A DNA stretch of 64,000 bases from Owenia fusiformis (taxonomy: Eukaryota; Annelida; Polychaeta; Sabellida; Oweniidae): the NCBI GenBank assembly GCA_903813345.2, contig CAIIXF020000008.1:6271341-6335340 (forward strand). Reading direction: 5' to 3'. Made by a program: the position numbers and the translations under genes. Shown piece after piece: positions 1,364-32,800 of the stretch (position 1 is its first letter; each line of letters starts with the position of its first letter). Below the pieces are notes generated by a model. The model was not told where the DNA came from and did not search any database. It saw nothing but the letters and a program-made list of their open reading frames with translations.

Positions 1364-3383
1364 ATGGCAAGTTTAATAAACAAAGACTCTATGGAGTTTG
1401 AGTGCCCCAAACACCAACTGTCCCTATTGGCCAGCCTTAAAGATATGTACGACACCAACACACTGACAGATGTCTGCATTGCCGTGGAGCAACACAAGTT
1501 TGAATGTCATAGGTAGTTATACATTTTTTTAAATATACAAGTACTGTGTAGCGCTTTAAAAGAATTTTCATGATTTATCAATAAACATGTCTATCAGAAC
1601 CCAAATTGTAAAAGATTAAGTTATTCATTTTCATACATGTATTTGCTATTTCAGGAATGTCCTAGCTGGGAGCAGTCCCTATTTCAAGGCCATGTTTACC
1701 AATGATCTTCAGGAACGGTACAAGCAAACAATCGAGATATTTGACATAGATTCTACATCAATGGAGCTAATCATCAATTTTGCTTATACAGGGAATGTAG
1801 AAATCACTATGACAAATGCACAGAGTCTAATGGCTGCCTCTTCATTGTTCCAAATGACATCTATTGTCAATGCATGTGCTAAATACATGGAAACACAGTT
1901 AGATGTATCTAACTGCATACCAATGCATTACTTGGCAGCGATTCACAACTGTAATGAACTGGCCTCTAAAGCCAAGGAGCATATTGAAAAAAATTTCAAT
2001 GAAGTTACAGAATGCGAAGAATTCCTACAACTCTCTGTTGAGAAGTTATCTGAAATAATATCATCAAGTGATCTGAACGTAGACTCAGAAGAGATTATAT
2101 TTGAGTCTATCGTTGACTGGATAAACCATGATAAAAATCAGAGAGAAGAATATATGAAGAAGCTCCTACCTCATGTAAGATTTAGCCTACTCAGTATTAA
2201 ATACATTCACAATAACATAGACACCAATGAAACAGTCAGGAACTGTGATACTTGTCAAAAATTACTAAAAGCTGTACATGTGTTTGAAAACTCCCCAGAC
2301 ACGTATAAAGGGGACCATGTATTTAATATGGAATTACGATCAGGGATGATTAAGCCTGAGCCCTGTATACTGTTAATAGGTGGCATCGATCATGGTCGAT
2401 CATCTATTAACTGTTACAATCCATTGACAAGAGAGACTTACAGTGTATCAACACAATGTGATAATGGAAAATTTAACTTTTGTGATATTGAGGATCCAGC
2501 CTGTGTGGTTACCCCCGACAACCAGATATTCATCGCTGGGGGCAATTATGTTTACCATGACTCCTGGTACTGGGATGATGCTTCAGATGTCGATTCCCTA
2601 GATGAATACGATGGTGAAGACACAGTTCGTAGGGACCTCTGTTGCTATGACAATGATCATGACACATGGATCGCAAAATCTCCAATGTTGTTTCCAAAAT
2701 CAAACTTTGCTCTGGTGCATTTAGATGGATTCCTCTATTGTTTTGGGGGGCTAACAGTTAACCAGCATCCGACTGAGATAATTGAGAAATATGACATTGA
2801 GTCCAATAGATGGACTTATGTGGGGATGATGCCAACGACACTTGTGGACTTGTCAGCAGTAGTACATGATGGAATGATATATGTTCTAGGGGGAAGAACA
2901 GGGGTCGGGGCACATAATGTTCTTATGAAGTATGACAGCATTAAATCTGAATGGACAACACTGGCAGGGATCCCCACGCCTCGTTTCAGTTTCGGGGCAT
3001 GTGTGGTAGGTAGTGAAATCTATGTTGCTGGGGGTCAGATCTACTCTCACACAAGCAACACTATCCACAGGGACTCGCTAAGCTCAGTAGAAATCTATAA
3101 TATAACTGAGAACATCTGGCGCCAAGGCCCAGAACTTCCCTCGAGTGTATACAATGTGGGACTGATACATGTCAATGGAAGCTTATTTGCCTGCGGGACA
3201 GTTGAAGTACAACGTAATGCATTCAGGGTCTATGGAAATGTGGTCTACAAGTTAGATCTGGGTAAATCTACATGGAGGATGATAGAGGATGATTTATGTG
3301 ACATCAGGGATTTTGCTTGTGTATCTGCCCGCTTTCACACCAGAAAATTAGCTCAAGTGTTCAGGCCAGAAGTGGATACTTAG
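1364..3383 (+). CDS. Kelch-like protein (BTB-BACK-Kelch), two coding exons
   Basis: Kelch-like proteins are substrate adaptors for Cullin-3 ubiquitin ligases: the BTB domain binds CUL3 and the Kelch propeller binds the substrate. Exon 1 is 1364-1512 and exon 2 is 1655-3383, joined in phase across a GT-AG intron that splits an arginine codon, giving about 625 residues, a normal family length. The BTB domain (about residues 20-130) contains LTDVCIAVEQHKFECHR followed by NVLAGSSPYFKAMFTNDLQE. The BACK domain spans about 135-240. Kelch blades start near residue 287, with glycine doublets in LLIGG, FIAGG, YCFGG, YVLGG and YVAGG; the last blade has ACG-T instead of GG. The start is the ATG in MASLINKDSMEFECPK; an upstream in-frame ATG at 1310 lies before the apparent splice acceptor and was not chosen. 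I cannot assign a specific KLHL number. Confidence 0.9.
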
Positions 3384-5086
3384 AACTTATGACTAGGACC
3401 AAATTCAAATGAATGTATGCAAGTTTATAGTACATGTTCTTCCAAATCTAAAATGCATAAATGTTGTTTTGAGCTTGGAGAAAAATTGTTTAAACAATCA
3501 TGTTAATTCATTTTTTCAATACGATCATGATATGATATCATGAAGCAATTATTTCATGAATAATTTTGTAAATTAAAAAGCATAAAGTCTAGTCATAAAG
3601 AGTGTGTCATAAGGTTTATTGGATGAAATTGTGAACCAATTGTCTTATTTTCTTGTCCATGTACATGCTAAAAAACAAGCTGGTCCATGCTAAAATTGAC
3701 TGAACATTGTTCCCTTGGTTGGTGCTTATGCCACCCCCTTTAGTTTAAATGTTAGGTTGTATCCATGATTATATGATCTTTATAACCTGGATAATTAATA
3801 TAAATCTGGATTGCATTTAAATAAGCCTAATCAATGGTTTTATTACATGAAGTTATTAATTGGAGTGTAAACTTTTTGTTTCGGTAACAGATCACAATAT
3901 CAATGTTGTGCTAAATTCCAAATCACAGATCACTTTTAATCAATTTTCCACTGCTACTGGATGAACGTGAAGTTCTATTTGCAGGACTATCAGACTTGAA
4001 CTGTTTATGTGAGTTTGAAATTTACTCAATTCAAAGGAATTCAGATTTTCTCTTGAATGGAGATGAAAAGGGTATTGAAACAAATGAAAAATTGATTGAA
4101 ATCTCTGCTCACCATACTTTTCAAGCTACCCAAAGTCTAGAACAGGGTAATTTCTAACTTTTGATTTTGATACCAAACTTGTGGAATTAGGAGACATAGC
4201 AAAGCAAACAACAAACATTTTTTTCTGAACATTCTGTGTATTTCTAAATATCAAATTTAATTTATTAATATTGTTTCGATTATTGATAATGTTGATTTAT
4301 CAACAATGGCAATTTGTCAGTTTGTTCATAAGTATTCTGTTGTATTTTGTTCTGTTTAGAAATAAATTTTGTATGAAAAAAATACATGAAGTTTGAAATT
4401 TTTTAAAATAGGTGACGTGTCAAACAAAAAATGCGACAAACATCATAAAAATGTTTTCTGCTTGGAACTCACTTTAAAATTTAGATGCATTTAGATGACA
4501 AACAGTGACATTTGCTGAAGTAAATCTACAAGAATGACTGCAAAATTGATGGACTGTAGTATCAGTATCATATATTTGAACCATATAGGTTTTAGACAGT
4601 ACAATATGCAATTAGCTTGTTATTTTTGAGCTCTGATCAAACGCTTTTTGTGTATCACACGTACCAGGTCGTTCAATAAGTTCATGCAAAAACATTCTCA
4701 TTTTTTTATTTTTCAATGTTTTTCCTTGAAACTTTCACAAATCATCCCCAAAAAAGTTGGACTATAACACTGTCACCACTTCTAGTGGTGATATAAAGAT
4801 GTGATAAGATTTAATGCATAGTTTGTAATGAGAAATCACAAAGAACAATACTTTAAAAACAACTTTGTGTGAATACATAGTTCTCACAATCTGCACAATG
4901 TTACAACTATTGTACCCCAAGAAGACACATTTGTATTGGGCTGAAATCATGTTTAAATAACAAATTATTGGAATGAAATACAGTGTACAGTGTAAACACC
5001 TTCAAAACAAAAATATGAAAAAATTACTCATTTATTGCATTTGTGATTCACGGAAATCATGACGCAAAATTGAAAACTGTCACACG
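3384..5086. other. 3' UTR of the kelch-like gene and intergenic DNA
   Basis: AT-rich sequence without a recognisable gene. AATAAA near 4362 is a possible poly(A) signal for the kelch-like gene. One copy of the dispersed GTCACCACC hairpin repeat lies at about 4735-4800 in minus orientation. Confidence 0.35.
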
Positions 5087-7053
5087 AATATGCATACCTG
5101 CCAACCTACCGTATTTTTACGGGAATCTACCGTAAATTTTTCGTTTTTCCGTAAAAAATGACAAACTTCCGTAAAAAAATACCATGTTTATCCCGTAAAA
5201 ACGCCCGTAAAAAAATCTACCGTATTTTTTTCGAAATCTACCGTAAATTTATTTTTTAAAAACTCGTTTCTTCCATGAGAACGGCCGTAAAATCTACCGT
5301 AAATTTTTGAAAATCTACCGTAAATTTTCGAAAATCTACCGTATTTCTGCTAAAATCAACAGCATTTTTGTTCAAACTACCGTAAAATTTCCTGTTATTG
5401 TTGGGAAATGCTGAAAAATTGAAGTCTTCCTGTACTGTCCCTGTAATATTCCTTCACCAACCCGAATATAAATAGGTATCGACAGGTCTGTGGTTATCAG
5501 GTTATTGCGCATTTATCTAAGTACGCTGGCGTATAATCAGTCCAAACACCAACTACCACAAGAAAGAATTCTTTCTGACATGATTTTTGTAGTTACCAAA
5601 CCCTTTTGTACACAGATCTTTATTCCGAATGCAACAAAAATATGATTTTAGTTGCGCTTCATCTAAATAATTGAGTGGAAATGACAAAAACTACTTGCTT
5701 TACCGTATGAAATATGCGTAGTTTGGTTTATGATCAGTACTGAACGCCACATATACATTATACATAGTTTAATCAATTTGTTTTCAGTACGATAAAATGT
5801 TGTATTTTTCATCTGAACACATTATATCAGTAACAAATACATAATATGTACCAACCAGCATGAGGATTATGGAATTTTTTATGCATCTTTATTCTATTTT
5901 CACACTTTTGGATTTGATTACAACCATTCGATATTCCACTCTATTAAAATGGTTCGAAACACGTAATAAATTCGTTTGTTTTTACACATTTATATTTGAG
6001 TTATGTAACTATATATGCGATAAATGCACTTGTATATGCGGTTCATGTTATTCAGTGTTTGGTAAAATGTCACATATTTAAGTCACGAACAAAGACGGTT
6101 GACACATAATATATTTAGAACACACATCAAATACAAATATACTTTAGAACCAAACAATGTTCATTTACCGAACATTTACCAAATAGCACGGACATATAGT
6201 GACTTACCCCACATAATTAATGACATATTGCACATAAAATCATGTGGGGTAGGTCAAATTCTTCCACAAAACTAGTTATTTTAAAATCTATCGCAAAAAC
6301 TACCGCATTTTTTCCAAATTTACCGAAATGTACCTCATTTTTGGCAAATCTTCCGCAAAAGTACCGGTTTTTTCAAAAAATTACCGTAAAAACTACCGCA
6401 ATTTTCAAAATCTACCGTAAAACTACCGCATTTTTGGCAAATCTTCCGCAAAAGTACCGGTTTTTCAAAAAATAACCGTAAAAACTACCGCAATTTTCAA
6501 AATCTACCGTAAAACTACCGCGTTTTTTCAGAATCTTCCGCAAAACTACCGCTTGTTCAAAAAACTACCGTGAAAACTACCGCATTTTTTCAAAATCTAC
6601 CGTAAAACTACCGCATTTTTTCAAAATCTTTCGCAAAACTACCGGTTTTTCAAAAAACTACCGTAAAAACTACTGCATTTTTTAAAATCTACCGTAAAAC
6701 TACCGCATTTTTTTCTAAATCTTCCGCAAAACTACCGCTTTTTTCAAATTTCTACCGTAAAATTACATTTTTTTTCAAAAATCTACCCCAAACCTCTGAA
6801 ACTACAGTATTTTTTTAAATCTACCGCAAAAACTACCGTTTATTTTATAAATCTACCGCAAAAACTACCGTTTTTTAAAAAATCTACCGCAAAAACTACC
6901 GTTTTTTCTAAAATCGACCGTAAAAACTACCGCAATTTTGTTGAAAAATACCGCAAAAACTACAGTATTTTGAAAAAATCTACCGCAAAAATACAGCAAT
7001 TTTAAAAAAATCTACCGCAAAATTTTGGTCTTAGGTTGGCAGGTATGAATATG
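5087..7053. mobile_element. TIR element filled with degenerate CCGTAAA/CTACCG repeats
   Basis: A 16-bp inverted repeat, CATACCTGCCAACCTA, bounds the element at 5093-5108 and 7032-7047. Immediately outside lie direct copies of AATATG (5087-5092 and 7048-7053), a 6-bp target-site duplication. Two blocks of the interior (about 5105-5400 and 6260-7030) are dense runs of CTACCGTAAA, CTACCGCAAAA and related words spaced every 10-35 bp. The middle (about 5400-6250) is AT-rich, non-repetitive and without a credible gene. The structure is a non-autonomous DNA transposon. I do not assign a superfamily, although a 6-bp duplication would limit the choices. Confidence 0.75.
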
Positions 7054-7931
7054 TGTCACCATATGTTGGATTAACAACAAAGTGATAAACTTAACAAGAA
7101 ATAACAAAAAATTAGTACCGTGGGTACTGGGCTCACATGGTGACAGAAAAAAACAGATATAATTTTTTGCTGATTTTTTGTAATAAAATTATTTCAAGCC
7201 ACTATTTTGGACTGACGGAGAGACAGATGGACAAATCGATGTTAAGTAAAATTGCTGAAAAAAACAGATATAATTTTTTTTTAATTATTTGGAACAAAAT
7301 TATTTCATACAACTACTCTTTACAGTGACATGGCTTTTTGCAATGCAAGACACCTGAAATTATTTGTAAAGCTAGGAAATGGGCCAAAATTGAATTTCGC
7401 GAGACAAAAATGACGACCATTTTGAAATCAGGCAAGCTTTTGAACCAGGAGTCAAAGGGGAGTTTTTTGTATTGATGTTGAACAAAAATAACGTGAAACT
7501 GGAATCCTATCGACAGAGGTTTTAAGTAAATGGTCCAAAAGAGGATTTCGCGAGACAGATGAACAAATCAATGTTAACTAAAATGGCTGAAAATAAAAAA
7601 ACAGATATAATATTTTGCCGATTTTTTGTAACAAAATTATTTCATACAACTACTCTTTACAGTGACATGGGTTTTTACAATGCAGGACAGCTGAAATTAT
7701 TTGTAAAGCTAGGAAATGGGCAAAAAGTGAATTTCGCGAAACAAGAATGGCGACCATTTTGAAAATAGGCGAGCTTTTGAACCAAGAGTCATAGGAGAGT
7801 TTTTTGTATTGATGTTGAACAAAATTAACTTAAAACGGGAATCCTATCGACAGAGGGTTTAAGGTAAATGGTCCAAAAGTGGATTTTGCGAGACAGATGG
7901 ACAAATCAATGTTAACTAAAATGGCTGATAG

Positions 7932-8523
7932 TCCTGTCCCTAGCCTCTCTGAGCTTACTCGGATTTAGAATGAAATAACTTTTGATTTTCTTTTAGTAGA
8001 TACCCTGAAGTGTAGGAATCCATAAGTTATTTTTCCAGGTTTGGGTAAAATCAATTTTTATGGCAGGTTATAGTGGCGCCATCTAGTGATTTTAAAGTTG
8101 CAGGGTGATAATCTTAATTAATTTTTTTTTCAGCCAAACCTAATTTCATATTTATTTTTTTGCTTTTTCCTTAGAGACTACTTCCTAAACTATGCATTTG
8201 AATTTTTAGGTGATCCTGGAAGGTCATTTGATGGGTCATATTGCCTCAAATATACAGAAGCGCCACCTATAATCAAGGGTCTACCTTATAAAGTTTATTA
8301 TTCTGAGGCTGATATGGTAGATAAAATTGTTATTATTGGTGTAACAATTAGAACCATAAAGGGGACATATGATGCAGTATCAAATTAATATATGTGGGAC
8401 ATGGGAACTTTAGAAAAAATTTTTTTTGTAAAAGTGGAAGAAATTTGACAAAATATCAGTTTTTACATATTACCAAATACATATGCTTTTTTATAAGTTA
8501 ATCCTTATATGATGTAACAAGTA
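7932..8523 (+). repeat. Left terminal inverted repeat of the 4.88 kb element
   Basis: Matches the reverse complement of about 12226-12807 with few substitutions and small indels. Shared landmarks include the CTCTGAGCTTACTCGGATTT block, the GCGCCATCTAGTGAT block, GAAGCGCCACCTATAATC and ATGATGTAACAAGTA, after which similarity fades. The low divergence of the arms suggests a fairly recent insertion. Confidence 0.85.
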
Positions 8524-9489
8524 CAAACAAATACATTTTGATTTTTGAGAATATGAATGAAGTAATTGTAGGGCTGAATTTTGGTTTTGGCCCATTATTA
8601 TTATTTAATTATTCTGTGTTTGATATACACCCCTTATTATATCAAAGACTCAACTTCTGGAAATACAACACGGTACTTAATGAATGTATGAAAAGCTTTT
8701 CCTGAGTTTCTTTGTATTAATAGAGTATAACATCTATTAATCATATCATTTCCATAAGTGTGCACTTTTAGAATAAATTATATTTTATTTTACAGGTAAT
8801 TTTTGCCAGAAACATTTTGTATAAAATTAGAGCTTCTCAAAAGATGTATCTACACTTTTCAAATAAAAAATGATCCTTCAATCTATCCCACCCAAATGGA
8901 GTTAGATCTAATTTTATATTATATTTATACCATCATAAGTTAATATCAAACTCAAAACTGAAACTCCTGTTAAAAGCCATGGCAGCTAATTTTGGGGTAA
9001 TTTACATCTTATTAGCATGAAGGTTGTTTAAAACAGTAATCCTCTATAATTGACTTATTGACTAACCTTTTGTTTTTGTATTTAGTATATATTTGAGACT
9101 ACAGATGAACATGTATTGAATTGGTGGAAACAAAATTATTAAAATGTGATTAAAGTAAGTAAGCTTAAGGTTTATTTAAGATATAAAGATTGCTCATCTT
9201 CGACAAAATAGAAGAATTAAAATTATGATCACTTAGAATGATTCAAATTATTTCTAATATAGAATGTAAGTTGGTGTCTAGGAAAATAAAACATATGATC
9301 ACATCCAGCTTTTCTTTGAAAGTCAAATTTCCTTGCATATGGATTAACGAATTAACGTTAATAACTAAAATGAACCCAGTTACATGATAAACTATGCATG
9401 ATCCTGAATTGTGACTGTATTTTTGAGACCCAGAGATTGAATATTTTAAAATCACTAACAATCTATTTCTTCTCCAGTTAACTTCCTAA

Positions 9490-11660
9490 ATGGCTTCTAT
9501 AAACTTTGAAAGAGGAAAATGTATTATCTGCCAAGATGATTTTAAAGACAGTAACAGCAATGTTGTCAAGCCAACTGTGGGACAAGCAAGAGGTGTTGCA
9601 ACCTTGCTTAGAATAAGCAAAATGAAAGATGATGAAGTTTATCAACGTATGAAAGTAGCCAAACTTGAAAACGCACCTATTCTATATCACATGAACAATG
9701 CTTGCTACAGAGTATACACCCAAAAACGGCATACTGAAGAACCATTGAAGGAATGGTTGGAAGAAACACACCTCATTCCTCAACAGCACAACCCAAACAA
9801 ATGAAATGTTCCCTTCCACAAAGGAATGAAGAAACTGAAACTGATACTGAAAAAACCATTGAAGGAATGGTTGGAAACACACCTCATTCCTCAACAGAAC
9901 AACCCAAACAAATGAAATGTTCCCTTCCACAAAGGAATGAAGAAACTGAAACTGATACTGAAAAAACCATTGAAGGAATGGTTGGAAACACACCTCATTC
10001 CTCAACAGAACAACCCAAACAAATGAAATGTTCCCTTCCACAAAGGAATGAAGAAACTGAAGAAACTGAAACTGATACTGAAGAAACCATTGAAGGAATG
10101 GTTGGAAATACACCTCATTCCTCAACAGAACAACCCAAACAAATGAAATGTTCCCTTCCACAAAGGAATGAAGAAACTGATTAAACTGAAACTGATACTG
10201 AAGAAACCATTGAAGGAATGGTTGGAAATACACCTCATTCGTCAACAGCACAACCCAAACAAATGAAATGTTCCCTACCACAAAGGCCCTCTGTTGAAGC
10301 TGTTGATGTACCTAAATACCAGAATGTTTGTATATATTGTAATCAGGTCACAAAAAACAAAACATATGAAAAATCCCGAATTTCTGAAGAGAAGAAAGCT
10401 ACCGAGTTTCTTGTACAAACCCAACACTTACAGGGTGAAGTGTATACCAGCACCTGTCACCTCACTGATGTGAAAGGAGTGATTGAAGCTGATCTCTTAT
10501 ACCATAACTATTGTTACAAACAATACAGCCATAAATACCAGAAAAGTACTGATTCAAATTCTCTTCATGACTACTGCAATTGAAGTAGGAATTATTAATG
10601 AGAGTACACTGATTCCTCTGAATATGGACAACTTTTGGGGAAGTAATTCCAACAAAGAGCAACTACAATTATTGTTGAGAAAATCAATACAAAAAGTGGC
10701 AAGTAGTTACACAAATATAATGTTTGTTTTAAGTGGAACAGTCAGCAATTCACCAGAGTTGTCCATGAAATGCGAAAGCTTCAATGTTCCCTCAACAAGC
10801 AACACCCCATGTATCAATAAACCAATAGAAGAAGCAGATACTAGAATGCTTCCCCATATAGTAGATGCCTTAAAGAATAACATATGTAGAGTGTCTGTCA
10901 TATCAAATGACACTGATGTCTTTGTCATGGTTTTGCACTATGCAGAAAAACTAAAGGACTATGGAGCATCAGAGATATGGATACGAGCTGGCATCGGGGA
11001 CTCAACAAGATATCTTCCTATGCATACATTAGCACTGAGAGTTGATGAGAATATAAGCAAAGTTTTACCTGCAATTCACTTCCTTACTGGTTCAGATGTT
11101 ACAAGTAAAGATGGTACAAAACCTGCAGCATTGAAAGTAAAACCAGAATACATTCAAGGTTTAGCAACCTTTGGGGAGAACCTAAGTGATGAAAATTGCA
11201 GTAAAGCTGAAGTGTTTCTTGTACAAGTTTTGAAATCTGGGTCAAAATGTATGACAATGAATAAATTTAGGAACTGGATGTACCATCACTCAAAATCAGC
11301 TCAAATAAGCTCATTGCCACCCACATCACACCTACTAACAGACCACATAAACGAGCTCACTTAGCCACATATCAAGTCCAGCATGTTCTAGATGAAGAAG
11401 CTGTAACACTTGATCCCCTACAATATGGCTACATGAAGGACCCCACAAATGATTCTCTTATCCCAAAGCAGGACATAAGGATTTGGCCTGAAGATTTGAT
11501 AAAGCAATGTACATGCAAAACTTGCAGCCAGGCATCATGTGGATGCAAACAGAGTGGGCAACACTGCATATCATTCTGCAAATGCACAAGTTTACAAACA
11601 AATAAATGTAAAAATCCCTTTTTAAAAGAGAGTGAACTTTTGGAGGCAATGCTTAATTAA
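9490..11660 (+). pseudogene. Decayed transposon gene: zinc knuckles, repeat linker, PIN/FEN-like core, CXC-like tail
   Basis: Segments in order: an N-terminal module with CIICQDDF and YHMNNACYRVYT (C-x2-C then H-x4-C); a linker of about five 37-40-residue repeats (TIEGMVGNTPHSST...); a second module with CIYCNQ and YHNYCYKQY; a core with EADTRM, VISNDTDVFVMVL and HFLTGSDVTS; and a cysteine-rich tail with CTCKTC...CGCKQ...CKC. The core spacing of E-x-D, D-x-D and G-x-D resembles the acid cluster of PIN/FEN1-family nucleases. Breaks: a one-base loss near 9737-9740, an in-frame TAA at 10182-10184, a frame change around 10560-10615 where the middle of the family protein seems missing, and another frame change near 11330-11345. 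I know similar proteins as widespread uncharacterised ORFs in invertebrates; no function is established to my knowledge. Confidence 0.65.
9725..10275 (+). repeat. Coding tandem repeat, unit 111-120 bp, five copies
   Basis: The word GAAGGAATGG recurs at 9749, 9861, 9972, 10092 and 10212. Unit lengths are multiples of three (111 or 120; the extra 9 bp repeat GAAACTGAA), so reading frame is kept through the array. Each unit encodes a hydrophilic segment with NTPHSST and KQMKCSLPQRNEETETDTE. The first copy carries the one-base loss and the fourth ends in a TAA. Confidence 0.9.
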
Positions 11661-12225
11661 TGTTTTATGCTGATAAAATGAACTATTTTAATCAAATATC
11701 ACAAAACAAATTGAATGTAACAGTTGTTTTCTAGTCTCTATTTTACAATGAATTGGAATTTAGGTAGAATCAGATCAGGGAGCAGTTTTCAAAAATATTT
11801 ATGTCATATTCTTAATCACATCTATTTTCTAGAAATTCAAAGCAGTGCATTCTTTATTAAAAAATAGAGGTATTTCTGTTAATACGTTCAAGTGTTTTGC
11901 TGTGGATATATATACTTTGAATCTGAAATATGGTTATATTATTTCATAAAATAGCATGTATCTATTAGGAGGTACAATATTTGAAATGGTCAGGAAGACT
12001 TGGGGAGGCTAAAAGCGCATTTTGCTTTCAATTTTGTCATTGTTCTCTATGTTTCTTACTTTGCCTTCAAAAATCATACATGATTTACAAACAAATGAAA
12101 CTTATAGAAAAATATATTTTCTATAGATGGCGCCTTTTATGCATGGTTTCATTCTGTCTATAATGTATTCATTAATAACCGTAATTGTCAACCATAAGCT
12201 TAACTTGTCTAAATATATATTTTTC

Positions 12226-12807
12226 TACTTGTTACATCATGTTAGGTTTACCGTAGAAATAAAAAAGCATATGTTTTTGGTAATATGTAAAAACAATTTC
12301 TTCCACTTTTACAAAAATATTTTTTTCTAAGTTCCCATGTCCCACATATATTAATTTGATACTGCATCATATGTCCCCTTTATGGTTCTAATTATTACAC
12401 CAATAATAACAATTTTATCTACCATAACAGCCTCAGAATAATAAACTTTATAAGGTAGACCCTTGATTATAGGTGGCGCTTCTGTATATTTGAGGCAAAA
12501 TGACCCATCAAATGACCTTCCAGGATCACCTAAAAATTCAAATGCATAGTTTAGGAAGTAGTCTCTAAGGAAAAAGCAAAAAAATAAATATGAAATTAGG
12601 TTTGGCTGAAAAAAAAATTAATTAAGATTATCACCCTGCAACTTTAAAATCAATAGATGGTGCCACTATAACCTGCCATAAAAATTGATTTTACCCAAAC
12701 CTGGAAAAATAACTTATGGATTCCTACACTTCAGGGTATCTACTAAAAGAAAATCAAAAGTTATTTCATTCTAAATCCGAGTAAGCTCAGAGAGGCTAGG
12801 GACAGGA
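12226..12807 (-). repeat. Right terminal inverted repeat of the 4.88 kb element
   Basis: Inverted partner of 7932-8523. The outer tip reads TCCTGTCCCTAGCC on the minus strand. Differences from the left arm are scattered point changes (for example an ATAG for CTAG near the GCGCC block) and short A/T-run indels. Confidence 0.85.
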
Positions 12808-13389
12808 TCATGAAAATAAATTAATAAATTAAAAAATGGATATAATTTTTCGCTGATTTCTCGTAACAAAATTATTTCATACATCTTCTCTTTACATTGA
12901 CATGGATTTTTACAATGTAGGACACTTGAAATTATTTGTAAAGCTAGGAAATGGGTCAAAAGTGAATTTCGCGAGACAAAAATGGCGGCCATTTTGAAAA
13001 TAGGCGAGCTTTTGAACCAGGAGTCATAGGGGAGTTTTCTGTATTGATGTTGAACAGAAATAACATAAAACAGGAATCCTATCGACAGAGGTTTTAAAAC
13101 ATGCCACTGTTATTGACGAAAAGTGGATTTCGCGAGTCAGATAGACAAATCAATGTTAACTAAAATGGCTGAAAATAAAAAATGGATATAATTTTTCGCT
13201 GATTTTTTGTAACAATATTATAACATATATCTACTCTTTACATTGACATGGATTTTTACAGTGTAGGACACCTGAAATTATTTGTAAAGCTAGGAAATGG
13301 GTCAAAAGTGAATTTCGTGAGACAAAAGTGACGGCCATTTTGAAAATAGGCGAGCTTTTGAACCAGGAGTCAAAGGTTAAAACGTGCCA

Positions 13390-29847: not shown

Positions 29848-32800
29848 ATGGGAATCTCAGGCCTACTCCCATTCTTGAAGAATGCCTCTAAACAAGCCAA
29901 CATCAAAGAGTACAAAGGATGTACTGTTGCCATAGATACATACTGTTGGCTGCACAAAGGTGCTTTCGCCTGTGCAGAGAAACTGGGAAAGGGAGAAAAA
30001 ACAGACACGTAATTGTTATTTACTTTATTATTGTAAATAAATAAAGTATAGACTAAAGTTTTTAAATTCAAATTAATAACAAATAAGTGTTACGTAGTGT
30101 TTATATTTTTGGAGTGTGCTGCTTGAAGAAAAGGCTCAATAAAATATTTATAACATTTACATTTATTTTGACAAAATAGATACTAGTCTACTCTTGAACA
30201 TATATCCATTAAACTGTTTGAATGAACCATCATTTGGTCAAATAGATTGAAGTAGCATTAAAATTGACATTCACCATAATTCTTATTAAGGTATGTTTGG
30301 TATGTGATGAAATTTGTCAACAATCTGCTGAGCTGGGACATCAAGCCTATCATGGTGTTTGATGGTTGCCATCTGCCCTCAAAGAAAGGAGTAGAAAAGA
30401 GCAGACGAGAGTAAGCATTCAGTCATGTTGAAAATTATCAAGAGTACATTACTATTATAATATTAGGTCCACCCGTATAGGTCAGCGATAGCACAGGTAC
30501 CTCTTACGCAATAGGTCCTGGATTCGATCCCTGGTTTAGGCAAAACTTAATTTGCTTGTTTGCGTAAAGTCAATAATCCAAATTATTAATTAAAAACAAA
30601 CTGTACAGTTTCATAATGTTTAAATTGTCATTTTAATGAAATGTAGCTGCAGCTTAAATATAAAACTTTAAGATTATCTACTATTTGTTTTCAGACGTCG
30701 AGAGCTTTACAGAAAGAAGGCAGCCCAGTACTTAAGAGAGGGCAAGAAATCTGAGGCCAGAGATTGCTTTACAAAATGTATTGATATTACTCCATTGATG
30801 GCCTTGGAGGTCATGCAGGTAATTAATAAAACTCCTTTGTTACACATGACTCAAAACTGAAGATTAGATTATTTTTAATTGAAATTTTTCTTTCACTGAG
30901 AAAGTAGGTTATTTGAATAATACAAATGAAATGTTCACATTGATAAATTAAATCAAATTGATTTATTCTTAATATAGGCATGCAGGGCAAAGGGAGTTGA
31001 CTGTATTGTGGCCCCATATGAGGCAGATTCCCAACTTGCCTACCTTAGCAAGACAGGTATTGCTCAGGTGATCATTACAGAGGACTCAGATCTTGTGCTA
31101 TTTGGATGTAAGAAGGCAAGTAAATGTTCTTCTATACTCAATTTTCTAGTATACTGAATCACCATATAGGCACACTACCTTCGGACTATTACACATGAAT
31201 TTTCAGTTTTGAGTTTGCCAAGATCTCAGGAAGCTCAAATGGATCTTTCATGGAGTAATATAGGAGTTTGTGAAATGAATGCTTGCTGTTAATCAGAATG
31301 TGTTGTCATGATTTTCTGTTTTTTACATGATGAGATATAAACATTCTGCAGTTCACAAGATTTGTCACCTTATTGACCACATAGCTAACGACATCACCAA
31401 CATCCCCTGAACACAGGGGTCCAGACATCATCCGCTGTGCTCCTACTTTCTTTCTGAATTAGCCGATCACAGGAGGGATGAAGGAACATGATGCCTAGAC
31501 ACCTGAGTTTGGAAGATGCGTTACCAAAACATTTGGTTTCACTATGTTACTTTGACCTGGCATATAATTCAATACCATTGCATATGCTTAAATGGCCGAT
31601 CATATAATGTTGTAGGTGATGTTCAAAATGGCATATAATTCAATACCATTGCATATGCTTAAATGGCCGATCATATAATGTTGTAGGTGATGTTCAAAAT
31701 GGCATATAATTCAATACCATTGCATATGCTTAAATGGCCGATCATATAATGTTGTAGGTGATGTTCAAAATGGCATATAATTCAATAGTCAATACCATTG
31801 CATATGCTTAAATGGCCGATCATATAATGTTGTAGGTGATGTTCAAGATGGATATAGCAGGCAATGGTATTCTAATTGAGAGAATGCATCTGAACAAGGC
31901 CACCCAGATACAGCAGGACTACTTCACATTTGACAAGTTCCGCTACATGTGTATCCTATCTGGGTGTGACTACCTCCCTAGTTTACCTGGCATAGGACTC
32001 GGCAAGGCATGTAAACTCTTTAAGATCACAAGACAAGCTGATATGACTATGGTAAGTCTACAATATGGATTGAAAAACCAACGATAGCAATCCCATGTTT
32101 TTGGGGTGTTTTAGTGGTGTTACCATAATGGAGAAGTATAGGGTTCAGAATTCTAGTGTGAATTCTAGGGGATATTGGTAAAGATATTAAATTTAAATTC
32201 CCCTTCTAGGGTTGTGGGAATTAATAATAGGAACATTTGGTCAAGAGGTCCATTTTATTTCAATTTATTAAAAGTAAACAAATATATTTCAATCTTTTTT
32301 CAAGGTTATTCGTAAACTACCCACTACATTAAAGATGTCACAGTTGATTGTACCCCAGGATTACATTGATGCATTTTTCCGTGCGAACAACACATTCCTG
32401 TATCAGCTTGTGTTTGATCCCCTGGAAAGACGACTGAGGCCCCTCAATGACTACCCCCCAGATATAAACAGGGCAGACCTGGACTATGCTGGACCGTATC
32501 CTTGCAACAATTCAAGCAAGAATATAATCAGAAGAAAATATTTATTTTGATTCCTTTTGATTATTTCTTCATTAATAATCCTATTTATAAGTAACATATT
32601 CATTAATGAGTGAAAAAAGCAGTTATTAATGACTGCATTATTTAACTCCTTTTGGGTCACCCTATATAATACTACAATTGGATTTTATTAGTCAGTGAAT
32701 TAAGCAAGTATTTATTCATTACTATATAAATTCATTACTGCATTATTTGATATGTTGGATCAGCATACATTAACATATAGTACTACGTTGTATAAAACAG

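Follow-up and report, generated by a model that had tools for sequence, protein, structure and literature searches.

A transposon with a lone nuclease remnant in Owenia fusiformis is very probably an internally deleted AcademX-type element

Can a cut-and-paste transposon be moved by a PIN/FEN-like nuclease instead of a recognizable transposase? This question is raised by an element in a stretch of 64,000 nucleotides of the Owenia fusiformis genome (the window), in which an earlier note had described a transposon with terminal inverted repeats (TIRs) of ~590 bp and TGA on both flanks, whose only gene appeared to encode such a nuclease. We examined the ends of the element, its coding remnant, the other copies of its family and related full elements in the same genome.

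The element itself is as the earlier note described it, and the coordinates given there (7929-12810) are exact. The two arms are 98% complementary across 495 nt (7932-8426 and 12313-12807), beyond which they extend with small indels to ~8494 and ~12259, giving an arm of ~565-590 bp (Table 1). The insertion target is a tandem repeat with a unit of ~337-346 bp, and the empty site is provided by uninterrupted units ending at 7590 and 13172, which read AAAATGGCTGAAAATAAA and GGCTGAAAATAAA straight through; movement as one unit into such a target, also part of the earlier description, was confirmed. The termini of the family have the form TAG/TGA-TCCTGTCCC, and the 5' TIR of the window copy is 98-99% identical to those of nearly all other two-ended copies. 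The window element is a genuine DNA transposon, and its movement was recent.

Table 1. Features of the window element (positions in the window) and loci elsewhere in the genome that match Pfam DUF6589 (contig:position)
Feature	Position	Strand	Remark
5' target-site duplication, TGA	7926..7928		matches 12811-12813; one TGA only in uninterrupted repeat units
5' terminal inverted repeat, starts TAGTCCTGTCCCTAG	7929..8494	+	98% complementary to 3' arm
Exon 1 remnant: two zinc-knuckle-like Cys/His modules with 111/120-bp tandem repeats between them	9490..10569	+	same exon open in the C8 full copy
Internal-deletion junction, 2-bp GA overlap	10569..10570		links C8-copy position 2710 to 10447
FEN/XPG-like nuclease domain remnant	10570..11349	+	residues 921-1180 of the 1283-aa frame, 98.5% identity
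Cysteine-rich C-terminal tail, shifted 1 bp into another frame	11349..11660	+	matches full-frame residues 1181-1283 at 100% identity
3' terminal inverted repeat, ending in GGGACAGGATCA	about 12258..12810	-	pairs with 5' arm
3' target-site duplication, TGA	12811..12813		pairs with 7926..7928
DUF6589 loci L053-L057, L059	C11:14708020, C3:26995943, C5:17848263, C11:19954101, C1:55249787, C8:3968465

The gene inside the window copy is a different matter. The three acidic motifs to which the earlier note had pointed (kept in the remnant as EEAD, NDTDV and GSD) are indeed in frame, within a 293-aa frame at 10483-11364, but the gene around them is a broken remnant. In exon 1, the frame shifts near 9740 and is closed by a TAA stop at 10182-10184. 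At 10569-10570, this exon is joined out of frame to the nuclease block; the deletion behind the junction took away the last part of exon 1, the intron, all of a DDE-like region and the N-terminal half of the nuclease domain, including its N-terminal Asp and the VFDxY Asp. A further 1-bp frame shift near 11349 parts the nuclease block from the cysteine-rich tail. The window nuclease is incomplete and not a working enzyme, because D855 and D903 are lost and the frame is shifted. A Pfam scan of the window frames found no transposase or nuclease family over cut-off, and a single-sequence AlphaFold2 model of the nuclease remnant (pLDDT 35) was discarded. The window gene is a pseudogene, and the element is without any long intact gene. 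We also observed that the 111/120-bp tandem repeats within the first coding exon (9731-10286 in the window) vary in copy number among element copies.

What the intact gene looks like is seen in a full copy on the same contig as the window (C8:31324689-31337091), which has an unbroken frame of 1283 aa (C8:31332076-31335927) and an open exon 1. The whole window remnant corresponds to residues 921-1283 of this frame at ~98% identity, with the ~920 upstream amino acids missing. These upstream residues include the DDE-like region, which lies N-terminal to the nuclease in the same frame. Thus, the claim that the nuclease stands in place of a recognizable transposase does not hold: the window gene resembles a lone nuclease because its transposase part has been deleted. 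The earlier note had taken a separate DDE transposase in intact copies as the finding that would count against its reading; in substance this is what we observed, in that a DDE-like region is encoded, though fused to the nuclease, and no separate transposase gene was seen in the full elements (the C8 copy and the related element L022).

A TIR search of the 498-Mb genome yielded 16 two-ended copies, the window copy and 15 more, with TIR identities of ~96-99%. Read at the element ends, all 16 are flanked by 3-bp target-site duplications (TSDs), for which the earlier note had proposed to test (TGA, TAA, TAC, AGA, ATA, TAT, TTA, ATA, ACG, TAC, ATA, GTA, TAC, TTT, AAG and TTT; one copy with TTT, L039, is missing one terminal base). 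Chance matching is excluded, because each 3-bp match has a probability of 1/64 and all 16 copies have one. One intact gene per copy, for which the earlier note had also proposed to test, was not found: when mapped on the C8 copy, 15 of the 16, the window copy included, are internal-deletion derivatives, each having lost the greater part or the whole of the 1283-aa frame, which is full in the C8 copy alone. The junctions differ among these copies, with two exceptions. Four copies (L025, L028, L036, L038) have junctions 1664/5915 and 7689/10917 in common, and two (L032, L035) have junction 5788/10882 in common; the remaining deleted copies have their own junctions. Since the copies with common junctions lie at separate places in the genome and each has a duplicated flank of its own, the deleted forms themselves must have moved. 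The genome has a single occurrence of the DDE-like part of this family; beyond it, the best matches are other families at no more than 65% identity. Relative to the other copies, the C8 copy has ~1.8 kb of extra sequence (3129-4940). As a separate observation, in the C8 copy and in L039 (2/16) the outermost end bases, TAG and TGA, have changed places with respect to the gene, as though recombination between the long arms had flipped the interior.

The part that the window copy has lost includes a region of ~500 aa with conserved DN...D...GxxH...DxxxE residues. In an alignment (A1) of 13 long ORFs that represent the wider family in this genome, with identities down to ~22%, these are a near-invariant DN (D173), an invariant D355, GxxH (H384) and DxxxE (D603, E607). 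The acidic residues are spaced by ~180 and ~250 residues, a DDE-like layout that would fit a DDE transposase in which a large insertion precedes the final acidic residue, and we infer from this pattern that the middle region is probably a catalytic RNase H-fold transposase. A profile of the DDE-like region gave nothing meaningful against the PDB, with no solved RNase H protein matched by sequence; likewise, a phmmer search of the PDB with the full 1283-aa frame gave nothing meaningful (one match at E 1). A Pfam scan of the 13 long ORFs found no transposase, nuclease or helicase family over cut-off, with DUF6589 just below cut-off in one, and a scan of viral contigs for homologs found none.

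The earlier assignment of the nuclease core to the PIN/FEN type is supported by the full frame, in which the acidic positions are D855, D903 (VFDxY), E1008/D1010 (EEAD), D1034/D1036 (DTD) and D1096 (GSD/GCD). All seven are invariant across alignment A1; in alignment A5 (15 rows), D855 is replaced by E in one row (L056). Their order is that of FEN1, EXO1 and XPG. Moreover, a 15-sequence profile of the nuclease, compared with all PDB chains, matched EXO1 (E 0.0013) with collinear catalytic motifs. By this acidic signature and profile match, the nuclease is assigned to the FEN/XPG type (PIN superfamily). Comparison of the window's family with two relatives indicated purifying selection on both the DDE-like and the nuclease regions, with dN of ~0.3-0.6 and synonymous sites at or near saturation. 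At 30993-31124 (+ strand), ~18 kb away from the element, the window also contains a host exon coding for part of an XPG-family nuclease (XPG_I E 1.1e-12); this nuclease looks like exonuclease 1 (EXO1) and is unrelated to the transposon.

The fusion of these two regions extends well beyond the window's family. In the related full element L022 there are two open frames, of 358 and 1309 aa; its TIRs are 99% identical, its TSD is AAG and its termini (TAGTGCTGTCCCTAG) are nearly identical to those of the family described here. Another, L023, has the TSD TAT. ORFs at other loci of the genome (Table 1) match Pfam DUF6589 (E 1.3e-12), and the DUF6589-bearing ORFs that were read have a transposase-like core followed by a FEN-like nuclease, the FEN/XPG-like domain being present in 4/4 loci where that part was read (L053-L056). 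When the family of the window element was compared with DUF6589-bearing ORFs by hhalign, both regions were homologous (100%, E 1.5e-56). DUF6589, a family of unknown function in Pfam, may be the Academ transposase domain. In one of these loci (L056:530-986), an OTU-like cysteine protease domain (PF02338, E 1.2e-7) lies within the N-terminal half and precedes the DUF6589 match.

Academ proteins, as Kojima is said to have described in 2020, have an XPG nuclease and a transposase in the same protein. Academ is one of the DDE/D superfamilies (PMC10294476, PMC9004415), with a nuclease-encoding lineage, AcademX, that has TSDs of 3 or 4 bp, and a helicase-encoding lineage, AcademH, that has TSDs of 9-10 bp (PMC10045372). 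By architecture and TSD, rather than by direct alignment to Repbase Academ, the family described here appears to be of the AcademX type. We are confident that the window element is a non-autonomous, Ds-like internally deleted derivative of an AcademX-type cut-and-paste transposon. The autonomous form has two main coding blocks, which specify zinc knuckles at the N terminus, then a probable DDE-type transposase core, the FEN/XPG-like nuclease and, last, the cysteine-rich tail. In the mechanism that we propose, the full-length protein from a complete copy would bind the long inverted ends, excise any copy with both ends and join it elsewhere through cuts staggered by 3 bp, the nuclease presumably processing ends or flaps. 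The window copy makes no working protein and would have been mobilized in trans, as the Ac/Ds pattern of full and deleted copies suggests.

We considered three other readings of these data. The first, compatible with an internally deleted AcademX-type derivative, is that the FEN/XPG domain is itself catalytic in transposition alongside the DDE core. The seven FEN acidic positions are kept in full-length relatives, the domain is under purifying selection, and TSD length is tied to the accessory enzyme (3-4 bp in AcademX vs. 9-10 bp in AcademH; PMC10045372). However, the domain could instead serve a later repair step or regulation, and we hold a catalytic role to be possible but not probable. 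The division of labor that it might entail, with the DDE core acting on one strand and the flap nuclease on the other, such that second-strand or flap cleavage sets the 3-bp stagger, is put forward just as tentatively. The second reading is that an element of some other DDE superfamily, such as one akin to CACTA or Zator with 3-bp TSDs, independently acquired an XPG-like gene. TSDs of 3 bp are not unique to Academ, but the TAG/TGA-initial termini are not CACTA, Pfam transposase families gave no match above cut-off, and a single capture of an XPG-like gene is disfavored because the fusion is old and common to many diverged families in the genome; we think this reading quite unlikely. The third, a mobile family with a PIN/FEN-like nuclease as its sole enzyme, which itself moves the element, is hardly credible, since, although the window copy holds a nuclease remnant alone and 15/16 copies are without the DDE-like region, the window nuclease is frame-shifted and without two of the seven acidic positions, the C8 full copy and related full elements all retain the DDE-like region, and the nuclease-only layout cannot be the family's design because deletion end points vary among copies.

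An AcademX-type origin of the window element does away with the misleading idea of a transposon that a PIN nuclease moves unaided, and it illustrates how an element can come to look like the carrier of a new class of enzyme through internal deletion. Because the 98%-identical C8 copy carries both parts, as known AcademX elements do, the element is an ordinary one, and a DDE-class superfamily encoding a nuclease (AcademX) is already known. The Academ superfamily and the AcademX lineage are attributed to Kapitonov & Jurka 2010 and Kojima 2020. What the family does offer is a natural set for asking about the role of the AcademX XPG domain, with 16 young copies, two deleted subfamilies that have spread and a full copy. 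The tie between DUF6589 and the transposase-like core of the fused proteins is a small gain in annotation.

The comparison with known systems can be drawn as follows. The nuclease resembles the FEN1, EXO1 and XPG 5' nucleases in the order and identity of its seven acidic positions and in the match of its profile to EXO1; it differs from them in being fused to a transposase-like protein, and the window copy keeps its C-terminal half only. AcademH, the sister lineage within Academ, differs by its helicase and its 9-10-bp TSDs, neither of which was seen here. The family resembles AcademX in its long TIRs, in its 3-bp TSDs (in the 16 copies as well as in L022 and L023), in the fusion of a DDE-like region, taken to be the transposase, with an XPG-like nuclease in the C8 full copy and its relatives, in the many diverged families in the genome and in the lack of a detected helicase domain, whereas the window copy departs from AcademX in being without the transposase and half of the nuclease. 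That departure is of a kind familiar from maize Ac/Ds (Ds-del), in which copies with internal deletions retain their two ends and are mobile as long as the enzyme is provided by a full copy. Ac/Ds is a hAT system with 8-bp TSDs and 11-bp TIRs, of which the family here is not a member, but its working appears to be similar.
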